DNA of 64,000 nt from Anaerolineaceae bacterium (lineage in GTDB: Bacteria > Chloroflexota > Anaerolineae > Aggregatilineales > Phototrophicaceae). Of this stretch, positions 16,045 through 21,748 are shown in pieces. How positions within the stretch are numbered: position 1 is the stretch's first letter; every line of letters starts with the position of its first letter. The notes beneath the pieces are model-generated. The model ran no database searches and was not told where the DNA came from. It was given only the letters and a program-made list of their open reading frames with translations. The DNA lies in assembly GCA_002699585.1 (NCBI GenBank), contig PABP01000021.1, positions 496,001 to 560,000 on the forward strand, in the 5' to 3' direction. Made by a program: the position numbers and the translations under genes.

Positions 16045-17895
16045 TTAGTCTTCCAGAACGCGCCAGGCGTCCATGTTCCAGAGGTTAGCCGCCGGCAGCG
16101 GATCCCAATTCTCAACGTTCGGCTGGGCTGCAGCCATCACGTTGTTGATCACCAACCACAGGTAGGGCTGATCTTCGTACAGAATCTGCATAGCTTGCTG
16201 GTACAGTTCAACACGAGCCTCAGGATCACAACCTGGAACGGTTGTAGCTTCTTGCCACAGGTCGTTCAGCTCTTCGTTGTTGTAGCTTGTGAAGGCAAAG
16301 CCTGCACCAGGAATGTCAGATTCAGCCGAGAATGCCCAGCGGCCATCTGGGTCGAAGGGCAGGCCCAGGCTCCAGCCGATGATGATAGCATCATGCGTCT
16401 GGGACAGCAGCAGGTCAACCAATGCGCCGAAGTCAATGGCTTCGTATTCAACGGTGATGCCGATTTGGCCAAGCTGTTCGCGGATGGTCTGGCCGACACG
16501 TTCGCGCACGTCGTTACCAGCGTTGGTTGTGAGCGAGAAGCTCATCGGGGTGCCATTGTAGTCAGGATCAACTTCACGGGCATACAGGCAGTCGTTGCAT
16601 TCCAACTGGCCGTCGCCGTCCTGGTCTGACCAGCCAGCTTCAGCCAGCATTTCCAGGGCTTTTTCCTGATCGAACGGATACGGATCCAGGCCTGGATCAA
16701 CGAAGGTCACGCCTTCACCGCTGTTATGGGTTACTGCCTGATAACCATTACCTTCCAGAATACCGGACGCCGGGGTGTCACCATCCGGGCGGGTACCGAT
16801 CATGGAAGTGGTATCAATAGCATATGCCATTGCCTGACGAACCAGAACATCACCAAAGACCGGGTGAATACCCTGATCAATCAATTGGCCATTTTCGTCG
16901 AGGCCAGGTTGCGGGTTTGCCGGATCAGCAACGTTCCAACCAACATAGGTGTAACCATTTTGCGGTGATTCGAAGACCTGGTAGCCTTCTTCGGCAGCCA
17001 GTTCACGGAAGTCGTTCTGACGATCAGCGCTAACGCCAATGAATGTCAGTTCGCCAGCCAGGAAACGTTCGTATTCAACAGTGGTATCGGGAACGATCAA
17101 CTGAACGTATTCTGAAGGGCTTACATAACCGAGGACAGCGTCGCTGTATTCAGGAGCGCCGAGCATGCTAACCTGTACGCCAGCTTCAAAGAACGGATCG
17201 GTGAACGGACCGAATGTTGCGGTTGGGACGAAGAATGGATCGGAGTCCATTGCAGCATAATCCATACCGAAGGCAGCATCATAAAGATGTGAAGGAACAA
17301 CCGCAACATCGGCAATGCTGTCAATAGCCGTACAATTCGGGGTGATCTCTGTTACATTGCCTTCATCATCGAAAATGGGCTGGCCCAATACGAATTCGAT
17401 GGTGAAGTCATCGATTTTCTCATAGCTATCGACAAAACCACCGGCCTGCGTACCATCAGCCAGGGTTGTGAAAGCAGATGTACGCGGTGAGCTGGTTTCG
17501 CCACTACGTACAGCATCAGCAGCCCAGATCCAGTCATCAGCTGTGATCGGGGTGCCATCGCTCCACACCAGGTCTTGGCGCAGGTACAGGGTCAGGACGG
17601 TACCGGACTCATCATATTCCCAGCTCTCTGCCAGCCCACCGAGTTGCATCGGTTCGCTACGCAGTGTTTCCGGGTTGATTGCGATAATGTCTGGATACAT
17701 TTTGCCATAGATATCGGAAGAGGTTGTATCGTTACCGATAAGGGGATTGAAGGAACTTGGATCACTACCAATGTTACCTTCGATGACAACGCCACCCGTG
17801 TTGGGTTCAGCGTCTTGTGCTGCGGCAGGGCCTACCAACGCCATGACAAGCGTAAGCAAAGCACCCACCATAAGAAAATGGGTAAACCGCTTCAT
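16045..17895 (-). CDS. Extracellular oligopeptide-binding protein (SBP family 5)
   Basis: A 616-residue solute-binding protein of the DppA/OppA family. A signal peptide with basic MKRF start, hydrophobic core and AAAQ cleavage region opens the protein; there is no lipobox Cys. Landmarks are PLIGNDTTSSDIYGKMYPDI, the AESWEYDESGTVLTLYLR segment and VRQAMAYAIDTTSM. ATG 17895 has AGGAG 7 bases upstream, so the longer frame is rejected. It is the first gene of the importer operon. The 250 bases upstream, up to the tRNA terminator, are AT-rich and must hold the promoter, though none stands out. Confidence 0.93.
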   Translation of the reverse strand: MKRFTHFLMVGALLTLVMALVGPAAAQDAEPNTGGVVIEGNIGSDPSSFNPLIGNDTTSSDIYGKMYPDIIAINPETLRSEPMQLGGLAESWEYDESGTVLTLYLRQDLVWSDGTPITADDWIWAADAVRSGETSSPRTSAFTTLADGTQAGGFVDSYEKIDDFTIEFVLGQPIFDDEGNVTEITPNCTAIDSIADVAVVPSHLYDAAFGMDYAAMDSDPFFVPTATFGPFTDPFFEAGVQVSMLGAPEYSDAVLGYVSPSEYVQLIVPDTTVEYERFLAGELTFIGVSADRQNDFRELAAEEGYQVFESPQNGYTYVGWNVADPANPQPGLDENGQLIDQGIHPVFGDVLVRQAMAYAIDTTSMIGTRPDGDTPASGILEGNGYQAVTHNSGEGVTFVDPGLDPYPFDQEKALEMLAEAGWSDQDGDGQLECNDCLYAREVDPDYNGTPMSFSLTTNAGNDVRERVGQTIREQLGQIGITVEYEAIDFGALVDLLLSQTHDAIIIGWSLGLPFDPDGRWAFSAESDIPGAGFAFTSYNNEELNDLWQEATTVPGCDPEARVELYQQAMQILYEDQPYLWLVINNVMAAAQPNVENWDPLPAANLWNMDAWRVLED

Positions 17896-18148
17896 ATGTG
17901 TGCTCCTTGCGAACAACATGAATTTATTCGTGCGCTTCGCGCGCACTGTTTATACCACATTCGTGGTATGACGACTATTTATGAAATTACCCAAAGAATA
18001 TGAAGATGTTTTGAAGATTCTGATTATAAAAGCGCATAATTAGTGTTTTGGTTAATCGGATCTTAATGTAAATCCCCATAAAAGGTGTGATTGCAACACT
18101 AATTTTCGTAATTCACGATAGCCAAATAACATCAACATGAACTCCTGA

Positions 18149-18178
18149 ATCAAAAACTCCCACAAATGCGGGAGTTTT
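18149..18178 (-). terminator. Terminator of tRNA-Pro
   Basis: Read on the minus strand, CAAAACTCCC, an 8-base loop and GGGAGTTTT are followed by T, directly behind the tRNA 3' end. Confidence 0.8.
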
Positions 18179-18183
18179 GATGT

Positions 18184-18257
18184 CGGGGCGGCGGGATTCG
18201 AACCCACGACCTCTTACACCCCATGCAAGCGCGCTAGCCGGGCTGCGCCACGCCCCG
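18184..18257 (-). tRNA. tRNA-Pro (anticodon GGG)
   Basis: A 74-base cloverleaf. The acceptor stem CGGGGCG/CGCCCCG is perfect, and the anticodon stem CTTGC/GTAAG encloses loop ATGGGGT with anticodon GGG. The T arm is GTGGG-TTCGAAT-CCCGC. CCA is not encoded. A TATACT box lies 14 bases upstream on the minus strand (18271-18276). Confidence 0.93.
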
Positions 18258-18329
18258 TCGACATGCATAAGTATAGCAGAATTGTTCCCAGATGGAAGAT
18301 ACTAAATACAAAATGCATGAACTTGAGTG

Positions 18330-18358
18330 TTGGATGTCATACGTAATCTCGCTATACT
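18330..18358 (+). promoter_or_regulatory. Promoter of selD
   Basis: TTGGAT (18330-18335), a 17-base spacer and TATACT (18353-18358) match a sigma-70 type promoter, 54 bases upstream of the selD ATG. Confidence 0.65.
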
Positions 18359-18411
18359 GCACCTGGTCTCAACAGATCAAGATTTGTACGCACGATTTGA
18401 AGGTCATTTGG

Positions 18412-19461
18412 ATGACGCGGCAGCAAATTCGGTTGACGTCGCTTGCTTCATGCGCTGGTTGAGCGTCTAAGCTCGGAGCGAGCGATCTGGCGCAGGTCCT
18501 GCGCCCATTAACGGAATCATTCAAAACTGAAGACTACCCTCAATTGCTAGTCGGCCTCGGTTCTCCCGATGACTCTGCCGTCTATCAGTTCGATGCGTCT
18601 CGGGCCATTATTCAAACAGCGGATTTCTTCCCGCCTGTGGTAGATGACCCATATGCGTTTGGTGCGATTGCTGCTGCTAACGCCCTTAGCGATGTCTATG
18701 CGATGGGCGGCAAGCCCATCATGGCCATGAATCTGGTGGCCTTCCCCGATGGACACGATATGCAAATCTTGCAAGATATCCTCAGGGGTGGGGCAGATAT
18801 TGTGAAACAGGCTGGGGCGGTCATCGCTGGCGGTCACACGGTCGTTGATAAAGAACCCAAGTACGGCCTTTCTGTGATGGGGGAAGTTCATCCAGATCAC
18901 ATCATTCGTAAATCAGGCGCACAACCCGGCGATAAGCTCATCTTGACCAAGCCTTTAGGAACGGGCGTTATCACCACCGCGCTTAAACGTGGCGAAGCCT
19001 CTGATGAACATATTGAGCACGTCACCCAGGGCATGATGCAGCTCAACCGGGTTGGTGCCGAACTGGCCCAGCGCTATCAGGTCCATGCGATGACGGACAT
19101 CACGGGGTATAGCCTCATCGGGCACGGCTATGAAATTGCCGAGGCGAGCCAGGTCCGTATGCGCATCCACTTCGACCAGTTACAATGGTATCCAGGCGCA
19201 ATGGAATATGGCCAAGCAGAAGTCTTCCCTGGTGGCACAGGTCGCAATGCAGTGCATTTTTCACAATGGCTGACGGATACCCGCAATCTGGACTTCTGGC
19301 AATCCCAAATGATCTTTGATCCCCAAACCTCTGGTGGTCTCCTAATGTCCGTTGACCCTGCCGAGGCGGACACACTGCTTGCTGATTTAATCAGCGAGGG
19401 CATTCAGGCATTCTTTGTTGGTGATGTCGTCGCGGATGAAGTCGGCATCACGCTTCTATAG
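18412..19461 (+). CDS. selD: Selenophosphate synthetase, itself a selenoprotein (Sec17)
   Basis: SelD makes selenophosphate from selenide and ATP for selenocysteine and 2-selenouridine. The frame has ATG 18412 with GAAGGT 7 bases upstream, then an in-frame TGA at codon 17 (18460-18462), then runs open to 19461: 349 residues if TGA is read as Sec. Around it the sequence is LTSLASCAG-U-ASKLGASDLA, which aligns with E. coli SelD LTQYSHGAG-C-GCKIS, so the UGA is exactly at the catalytic Cys17 position and the catalytic Lys20 is kept. Downstream are the DDSAVYQF and GGHTVVDKEPKYGLSVMGEV signatures of the AIRS fold. A start after the TGA would remove the active site. A sound gene, not a pseudogene. 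Confidence 0.93.
18460..18505 (+). promoter_or_regulatory. Sec UGA codon and bacterial SECIS-like hairpin in selD
   Basis: UGA (18460-18462) is followed 26 bases later by GGCGCAG-GTC-CTGCGCC (18489-18505), a 7-bp stem. Its top, GCAGGTCCTGC, closely resembles the GCAGGTCTGC apex of the E. coli fdhF SECIS that SelB binds. The loop G lies 34 bases after the UGA, within the spacing usual for bacterial SECIS elements. A smaller hairpin (GCTCG/CGAGC, 18471-18483) sits between. Confidence 0.78.
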
Positions 19462-19615
19462 AACAAATCTGAAACATCGACCCCACTTTATTCCTATTAT
19501 CGCAATCTCGATAGCGGAACTATGCTATTATGAGGTTGATATTTGGTTTGTTACCTTATTATTTTGAATAAGAGCACGCTTTTAACCTATCCAGTCGACA
19601 GAGAGGTAAAGCGCG

Positions 19616-21748
19616 ATGAGCAGTTCCGCGTCCGTACCCAAACCAAGTTCCCCCGGTCCCGCACAAAAGGCCATTGCCAATACAAAATCGGCGTATGCCA
19701 ATATTCGCGTTGGGCCAGGAACACAATACCGCGACATCGGTGATTTAAGAGATTTATCCCTGTGCATCTACTATCCTCAGACTCGCACCAGTGATAACTG
19801 GTATTGGGTCGAGTATTCTGGTGTCGGTGGTTGGGTCGCCGGTAGTGTCGTTGAGTTTGAATCGGTTGTTGGTGGTGAACCGGATGATCGTCCCACCACG
19901 CCCTACGATGGCAAAGTCGCTGTCTGGCATTGGAAAGGCGATAGCATTGCCGAGCGAACGATTGATGAATTCGCTGGCAATATCAGGCGGCTGGCACCCA
20001 ATGTTAAACAAATCTGGGTAAAGACCAGCGATGGTTCATTCTGGCAGGGGCGCTTTGATAGCAGCCAGCTTGCAGTCAACGGATCGTCTGACCTCACGCG
20101 CTGGGCAAATACACTCAATAACTATGGCTTGGAACTACACGCTTGGTGTGTGCCGACAGGCGTCGACATCGAAGCTGAAGCGCGCATCATTGCTGAAACC
20201 TGTAATAACTCCGGCGTCAAATCCATGATCCTTGATGTCGAACCGTATACAGGATTCTGGCAGGGTGGGTCAGAAGCGGTTCGGCCCTTTATGATGCGTA
20301 TTCGCCAGCTTATCAATGATTCGCGCTTTCATATCGGTATGAGCATGGACCCGCGTCCCTGGCATTTTAGCAGTATTTACCCCCAGGAGTGGTATCCGTT
20401 CATAGATAGTGTCCATCCACAGTGCTACTGGTACACTTTCCGCAAAACGCCTGAAGAAACCTTGCAGCAGATGATGGATACCTGGGCCACTTATGGCAAA
20501 CCAATCATCTCAGCTTTACAGGGTGACGCGCCGTTGGAAGAACAGGTGACAGCCCACACCCTGGCCACCCAGCGCCATGACAATCTTGGCGTGAGTTGGT
20601 GGCGCTATGGGGTCATCGGTCAGTACGCCGCAGTCAACCTGCCGATTGAAGTGTCCCCAGATGAAGAACCAGACGATGACGAAGAATATTACTCGGATGA
20701 AGTCCTTGTCGTGCCTAACGGTCCCGGCTTTAGGAGCGGCACCTACACGGGCAATCAGGAATTCAGTTCGTTCCAGGGGACATGGAATTGGGAAGTACTT
20801 TATAAGAAGACCGAGGCGAACATCAGCAAAGTCTGGGCAGAATGGAAAACCGATCTGCCAGAATCCGGTCGCTATGAAATTGCCACCTTCGTCCCTGCGC
20901 GCAATGCCACCACGACCAAGGCCCGCTTTAAAGTGCATGGCATTCGCGGGACCAATACGGAAGTCGTTGTCGACATCAACCAGTGGCAAAACCGCAACCA
21001 GTGGGTCACCATCGGCATCTTCGATCTGGTGAAGGGCCAGCTCAATGCAGGTAAAGTCTTCCTGAATGATGTCACTGGCGAGCCGGACAAGGTCATTGCC
21101 TTCGACGCTGTTCGTTTCAGGCGTATTATCACCACATCTGGCAGCGGCGGCAGCGATACCGATACCGGTACAGGCTCAGATGGCGGCACGGATATTATCA
21201 ATGGCATCTATGTCGCCGATGGCTTTGACTCCCCGGTTGGTACCGAAGACGAACGAATGGCCGTACGTGTGTGGCCGCAAGGCTGGTTGGATGCCAGTCC
21301 CTATGCTGAGCTTTACTTTGTAGGGACGCCCAGCCAGGCTTATCATACGGGCGCGGACCTCAATTTTGGACGTCCGTACGAAGATCGCGGCATGCCTGTC
21401 TATGCCACAGCCAGCGGTGTCGTCACCTATCAGGCGGATCTGCGCCCCTGGGGTAACATCACCATTATTCGTCATGATCCCCTTAAGACAACCAAGGGGC
21501 GTGTGATGTATAGTCGTTATGGCCATATGCAGAATCTGCGCGTCAAAGTGGGTGATCGCGTCAAACGTGGCCAGCAAATCGCGGAAATCGGTGACGGCGG
21601 CGGCCGCTTCATCCCGCACCTGCACTTTGATATTGTGGCAACGACTGTTCTCGAACTCAGCCCTGGCGACTGGCCCGGCATGGACCTGGCCCGCTTGAAG
21701 AAGCACTATATGGATCCCAAGCTTTTCATCCAGAACAATCGCCCTTAG
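19616..21748 (+). CDS. Multidomain cell-wall hydrolase: SH3b, glycosidase-like barrel, golvesin-like domain, M23 peptidase
   Basis: A 710-residue protein. Residues 18-85 resemble a bacterial SH3 domain (YANIRVGPGTQYRDIG). Residues 100-345 look like a TIM-barrel glycosidase (MILDVEPYTGFW, GMSMDPRPW, VHPQCYWY). Residues 365-505 resemble golvesin-type carbohydrate-binding domains. Residues 540-700 are an M23/LytM metallopeptidase with the zinc motifs HTGADLNF and HLHFD and an SRYGHM strand. The N-terminus, SSSASVPKPSS, is not a signal peptide, so export is unexplained. GAGAGG lies 10 bases before ATG 19616. It is monocistronic with its own terminator. Phage-lysin ancestry is possible. Confidence 0.82.
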   Translation: MSSSASVPKPSSPGPAQKAIANTKSAYANIRVGPGTQYRDIGDLRDLSLCIYYPQTRTSDNWYWVEYSGVGGWVAGSVVEFESVVGGEPDDRPTTPYDGKVAVWHWKGDSIAERTIDEFAGNIRRLAPNVKQIWVKTSDGSFWQGRFDSSQLAVNGSSDLTRWANTLNNYGLELHAWCVPTGVDIEAEARIIAETCNNSGVKSMILDVEPYTGFWQGGSEAVRPFMMRIRQLINDSRFHIGMSMDPRPWHFSSIYPQEWYPFIDSVHPQCYWYTFRKTPEETLQQMMDTWATYGKPIISALQGDAPLEEQVTAHTLATQRHDNLGVSWWRYGVIGQYAAVNLPIEVSPDEEPDDDEEYYSDEVLVVPNGPGFRSGTYTGNQEFSSFQGTWNWEVLYKKTEANISKVWAEWKTDLPESGRYEIATFVPARNATTTKARFKVHGIRGTNTEVVVDINQWQNRNQWVTIGIFDLVKGQLNAGKVFLNDVTGEPDKVIAFDAVRFRRIITTSGSGGSDTDTGTGSDGGTDIINGIYVADGFDSPVGTEDERMAVRVWPQGWLDASPYAELYFVGTPSQAYHTGADLNFGRPYEDRGMPVYATASGVVTYQADLRPWGNITIIRHDPLKTTKGRVMYSRYGHMQNLRVKVGDRVKRGQQIAEIGDGGGRFIPHLHFDIVATTVLELSPGDWPGMDLARLKKHYMDPKLFIQNNRP

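Follow-up and report, generated by a model that had tools for sequence, protein, structure and literature searches.

Does the selD gene of this bacterium, whose reading frame meets a TGA at its seventeenth codon, encode a selenoprotein, or is the TGA a mutation, a misread base or a stop that lies outside the true gene? The gene is located in a window of 64,000 nucleotides, by which we mean the whole stretch of DNA analysed (positions 496001-560000 of contig C35), taken from a 6.70-Mb genome (G000; 6,701,443 bases in 42 contigs, 96% complete). We consider, with a probability of about 0.97, that the gene encodes SelD and that the ribosome inserts selenocysteine (Sec) at codon 17, directed by a SelB-bound hairpin; judging from sequence comparison, this Sec would be the catalytic residue. 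The positions of the features on which the argument depends are collected in Table 1.

Table 1. Location and basis of selD, its recoding signals, the Sec machinery and other TGA-bearing genes. Positions without a contig number refer to the window; those with one refer to contigs of the same genome.
Feature	Position	Strand	Basis
selD, selenide, water dikinase	18412-19461	+	349 aa with predicted Sec at residue 17, stop codon included in positions; TGA=U translation, TIGR00476, PDB 3u0o
In-frame UGA, codon 17, catalytic position	18460-18462	+	Sequence, PDB 3u0o alignment, relatives' loci
GAAGG, probable Shine-Dalgarno site (modest)	18399-18403	+	8 nt 5' of ATG; sequence and inference
Bacterial SECIS-type hairpin, GGCGCAG-GUC-CUGCGCC	18489-18505	+	Stem of 7 bp with apical GUC; 33 nt from UGA to loop
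tRNA-Sec	C28:401341-401434		Anticodon TCA; 72.8 bits against gathering score 47
SelA	C28:896798		565.5 bits against cut-off 267.9
SelB	C35:425515-427362		344 bits against cut-off 242.25
Rdx/SelW-like gene, second probable selenoprotein	C28:694164-694385, in L144	-	PF10262 match with inner TGA
AhpC/TSA matches with one TGA	C25:2049-2420; C3:156380-156754; C12:1341-1715		Profile match

Read directly, the frame opens with an ATG, runs for 16 codons to the TGA and then stays open as far as a TAG, so that the initial annotation, which had described a start codon with a ribosome site and SelD continuing in the same frame beyond the UGA, was correct on each point. Coding potential persists over the 332 codons 3' of the TGA, and the codons 5' of it score poorly. 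The protein belongs to the SelD family (386.6 bits on TIGR00476, whose cut-off is 125, with residues 7-318 aligned with profile positions 1-310 of 311), and its best solved relative is PDB 3u0o (E 2.7e-70, residues 1-342), which we take to be E. coli SelD. In this alignment U17 falls on C17 and K20 on K20, as had been proposed; Lys20 is presumably a residue with a catalytic role in SelD. The two proteins are therefore whole-length homologues with Lys20 in common, whereas the E. coli enzyme has Cys at both 17 and 19 and the window protein has a predicted Sec at 17 and Ser at 19. The pair expected of a SelD, a catalytic Cys or Sec at 17 together with Lys20, is present in the alignment with 3u0o, and the UGA stands at a Cys position, as it does in bacterial selenoprotein genes, both against PDB 3u0o and among 31 SelD loci described below. 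Sec is described as a catalytic residue of SelD in PMC13188914. Just upstream of selD, on the opposite strand, lies a tRNA-Pro gene (GGG; 18182-18257, minus strand). A search of Rfam with positions 17500-19700 and E values up to 10 returned eight matches, none over its gathering score except tRNA.

A plain table-11 call of the gene begins at TTG 18544 and gives 305 aa, and so misses 44 N-terminal residues and the active site, an outcome that the initial annotation had predicted. Perhaps SelD is simply this shorter protein, begun no earlier than TTG 18544, and the upstream UGA is irrelevant; the mechanical list of open reading frames offers exactly such a 305-aa frame, and a 311-aa SelD chain (PDB 2zau_A) matches the window protein only from residue 46 on. 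We give this very little credence, because the conserved N-terminus, with the catalytic position and Lys20, lies within these 44 residues and recurs in all 31 loci (the motif having also been used to locate the place in each), and because the N-terminal part matches PDB 3u0o from residue 1.

A survey of SelD in 151 genomes of the order, our own included, gave some match in 133; among the weaker matches, many are short or have low scores. Where the match was full-length, that is, over at least 300 query residues, exactly one inner TGA was present in 95 of 109 cases and no stop in the other 14. We read 31 loci individually: our own, the 29 of the order that scored next best, which are an uneven sample, and one in an Alkaliphilus MAG, the single relative found in a search of genome contigs from which the window's own and very near genomes may be excluded. 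At the aligned codon 29 of these have TGA, and the remaining two (L018 and L037) have TGT or TGC (Cys). The relatives are not independent, and such counts therefore overstate significance. They nonetheless bear on the reading of the gene as a pseudogene or an error, in which the TGA arose by nonsense mutation or by misreading of a Cys codon. Cys is indeed the alternative residue at this place, one base away from TGA, in those two genes; a sequencing error is not credible, however, when the same single TGA recurs in 95 of 109 full-length matches, and its conservation largely refutes a pseudogene as well. With coding potential maintained downstream, a conserved hairpin and the Sec machinery in the genome, we regard either form of this explanation as extremely improbable.

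If the UGA is a Sec codon, a bacterial SECIS element should follow it, and a hairpin of this kind had been noted 3' of the UGA; it is present, conforms to the published model and is retained in relatives. As set out in section 5 and Fig. 2A of PMC13188914, the model comprises an apical loop of 3-9 nt with G in its first two positions, a stem of 4-16 bp, a distance of 16-37 nt from the UGA and a minimum free energy at or below -7.5 kcal/mol. The window hairpin has a loop of 3 nt in which G is first and U follows, 7 bp of stem and a distance of 33 nt, and on its own folds with -11.3 kcal/mol. Its apparent likeness to the E. coli fdhF SECIS extends to a short apical loop in which U follows G, a G+C-rich stem and similar letters round the apex; the fdhF loop lies about 18 nt after the UGA, compared to 33 nt in selD. 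Two folding results count against the hairpin. Left unconstrained, 18460-18507 has another minimum-energy fold, at -20.7 kcal/mol against -18.9 with the GUC hairpin forced (a difference of 1.8), and selD stretches compared with shuffles gave weak z-scores (-0.18 to -1.27). Geometry without the energy rule says little when the stem may be as short as 4 bp, being found at 62% of 537 stop TGAs and 64% of 6799 in-frame Cys codons; a 7-bp stem reduces these figures to 6% and 7%, and a GU triloop with at least 7 bp of stem, a form chosen after the hairpin had been seen, to 0 of 537 and 13 of 6799.

Comparison was more informative. The hairpin was aligned across 29 Sec-SelD genes (28 distinct), the tested structure being drawn from one of these sequences, and all 29 retain its inner four pairs, with compensatory changes. 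When synonymous codons were redrawn from our genome's own usage (300 draws), these four pairs were intact in a mean of 3.8 and at most 9 of the 29 genes. The window gene alone gives p = 0.06 for its full stem under synonymous redrawing, and the weight of the hairpin evidence hence lies in the comparison, among genes that are themselves related. Standard pairs occupy 93.4% of pair cells, compared to 88.4 after shuffling; three pairs have changes on both sides, which 2 of 500 shuffles equalled, and the covariation score of 0.223 (0.115 shuffled) was reached in none of 500. Further pair types showed no excess over shuffles (5 versus 5.0). Taken with the synonymous-codon null, this covariation indicates that the element is conserved as RNA beyond the demands of the protein. 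Column pair 36/40, for example, is A-U in 22 genes and G-C in seven. Towards the base of the stem, eight of the 28 distinct rows do not pair at 31-45 and five do not at 32-44. The Cys-SelD genes, L018, in which an amino acid within the stem is changed, and L037, provide a small control of two: they keep 3 and 4 of the seven pairs, and of the inner four 1 and 3. The hairpin region of L037 (G108:C13:20293-21303) has the appearance of a decayed SECIS. Two other helices were considered and discarded, namely a GCG-loop helix that competes in free energy and showed no covariation excess over shuffles on the alignment, and a 5' helix proposed by RNAalifold (columns 1-4 with 13-16), in which no pair changes on both sides.

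Decoding UGA as Sec demands dedicated machinery, and the initial annotation had supposed that the organism possesses SelA, SelB and tRNA-Sec, such that a genome lacking tRNA-Sec or SelB would tell against it. All three were found in the window's own genome, the combination expected for a bacterial selenoprotein gene. SelB combines its GTPase with the SelB beta-barrel and the winged-helix domains SelB-wing_2 and SelB-wing_3; six further SelB matches and nine further tRNA-Sec matches are all weaker and below the respective cut-off and gathering scores. The genes are dispersed, selB being about 87 kb from selD, and selA and the tRNA-Sec gene being on another contig. The same complement makes it highly unlikely that UGA is read here as another amino acid, or has been reassigned throughout the organism. 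Readthrough without Sec does have a proposed precedent in hymenopteran SPS1-UGA (accessible text of PMC4561486), yet in the stretches that we read UGA serves as a stop, since 537 stop-to-stop frames of at least 200 aa end at TGA, and the recoded position is catalytic, with Cys in both of the stop-free genes read.

Sec insertion at codon 17 would proceed as follows. SelB carrying Sec-tRNA-Sec would bind the hairpin and deliver Sec at the UGA; in the finished enzyme Sec17 and Lys20 would be catalytic, with Sec binding selenium, and selenide and ATP would be converted to selenophosphate. SelA would use the selenophosphate to make more Sec-tRNA-Sec, and SelD would thus take part in its own synthesis. 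We infer the binding, insertion and catalytic steps; the frame, the alignment, the conservation of the codon, the RNA hairpin in comparison and the machinery genes are observations.

We sought other products of the Sec trait through a readthrough scan of 2,871,841 of the 6,701,443 bases (43% of the genome). An initial, stricter scan of 464,000 bases had returned three candidates without selD among them, and the criteria were widened accordingly; coding potential then gave 46 and 23 candidates, and relaxed cysteine-motif criteria gave 77, some of them repeats. Judged by eye, SelD and an Rdx/SelW-like gene alone looked real within that 43%, and the idea that SelD is the sole selenoprotein of the genome was rejected, the second gene being convincing as well. 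One of two PF10262 (Rdx) matches carries the TGA; the gene reads MHITVEYCAAU, a CxxU motif, is followed after the UGA by a 6-bp hairpin with a GUU loop, and scores 63.7 bits against PF10262 when C is substituted for U. Among 19 AhpC/TSA matches (PF00578) in the genome, three, all located beyond the scanned stretches, have one inner TGA and are probable Sec peroxiredoxin-like genes, although the C3 and C12 matches score identically and a single repeated copy may account for both. We found no Sec formate dehydrogenase: PF00384, within which we assume the Sec of FdhA to fall, has four matches in the genome, none with an inner stop. Neither was there a match to the selenouridine synthase profile TIGR03167.

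The distribution of the trait among relatives was assessed in 86 genomes of the family, several of which are incomplete, so that absences are soft. Sec-SelD occurs with tRNA-Sec in 52 genomes and without it in three; one has tRNA-Sec and no SelD, and 21 have neither. Over these 77 genomes the co-occurrence is strong (Fisher p about 1e-14, a significance inflated by kinship). Stop-free SelD accompanies tRNA-Sec in one further genome and stands without it in two, SelD fragments occur with tRNA-Sec in three, and three genomes were outside the SelD survey. The three with Sec-SelD and no tRNA-Sec match at E 1e-9 (G136, G090 and G095) may reflect an assembly gap, loss in filtering or a real oddity. 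TGA-bearing Rdx is found in 53 family genomes with tRNA-Sec and in two without, while six have tRNA-Sec and no Rdx match. A TGA within PF00384 appeared once in the family among the matches listed (G086). In a set of 15 hand-picked genomes, G067 has no TGA-bearing AhpC/TSA gene among the matches listed, and at least 10 of the remaining 14 have one. G067 belongs to the same genus and is assembled in one contig; it has no SelD match and no tRNA-Sec, and its two Rdx frames are free of stops. The Sec trait was probably lost within the genus, in G067. In G108, Cys-SelD (L037) coexists with tRNA-Sec and a TGA-bearing Rdx, from which it seems that Sec in SelD itself is dispensable for the trait.

That several SelD proteins carry Sec at this place, as the initial annotation stated, agrees with the literature: Table 1 of PMC1794560 counts 38 SelD selenoproteins, and the accessible text of PMC4561486 gives Sec in 19% of SelD genes in a reference set of 223 genomes, always at the same position, and reports bacterial SECIS elements in Sec-SelD. 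Few bacterial selenoproteins have been described as often as Sec-SelD, and the window gene is an ordinary example. It shares with other bacterial Sec-SelD/SPS2 genes the same catalytic UGA, a SECIS just downstream and SelA, SelB and tRNA-Sec in the genome; it is no different in kind, and its sequence differs as expected. No paper on this particular gene was among the matches listed in our literature searches. According to the accessible part of PMC1794560, Sec-decoding organisms without FdhA all have Sec-SelD, and most have the selenouridine trait; the same text records selenoproteins in Chloroflexi and the selenouridine trait as absent there, and the available portion of PMC5322559 likewise gives no selenouridine for Chloroflexi. 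Our genome fits the first part of this rule, with Sec-SelD and no Sec-FdhA found, and belongs to the minority that lack selenouridine.

In practical terms, every other SelD gene of the order that carries the TGA would likewise be truncated by table-11 gene calling and lose its active site. A genome in which no Sec formate dehydrogenase or selenouridine synthase was found, and whose relatives include some without the trait and some with a stop-free SelD, is also useful for studying how Sec is gained and lost. We see an even chance that the lineage keeps its Sec trait without Sec formate dehydrogenase or selenouridine, the sole outputs being SelD and thiol-redox selenoproteins (Rdx/SelW-like and AhpC/TSA), and that G067 has lost SelD and tRNA-Sec. 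If true, the group would be a natural test of what maintains the Sec trait.
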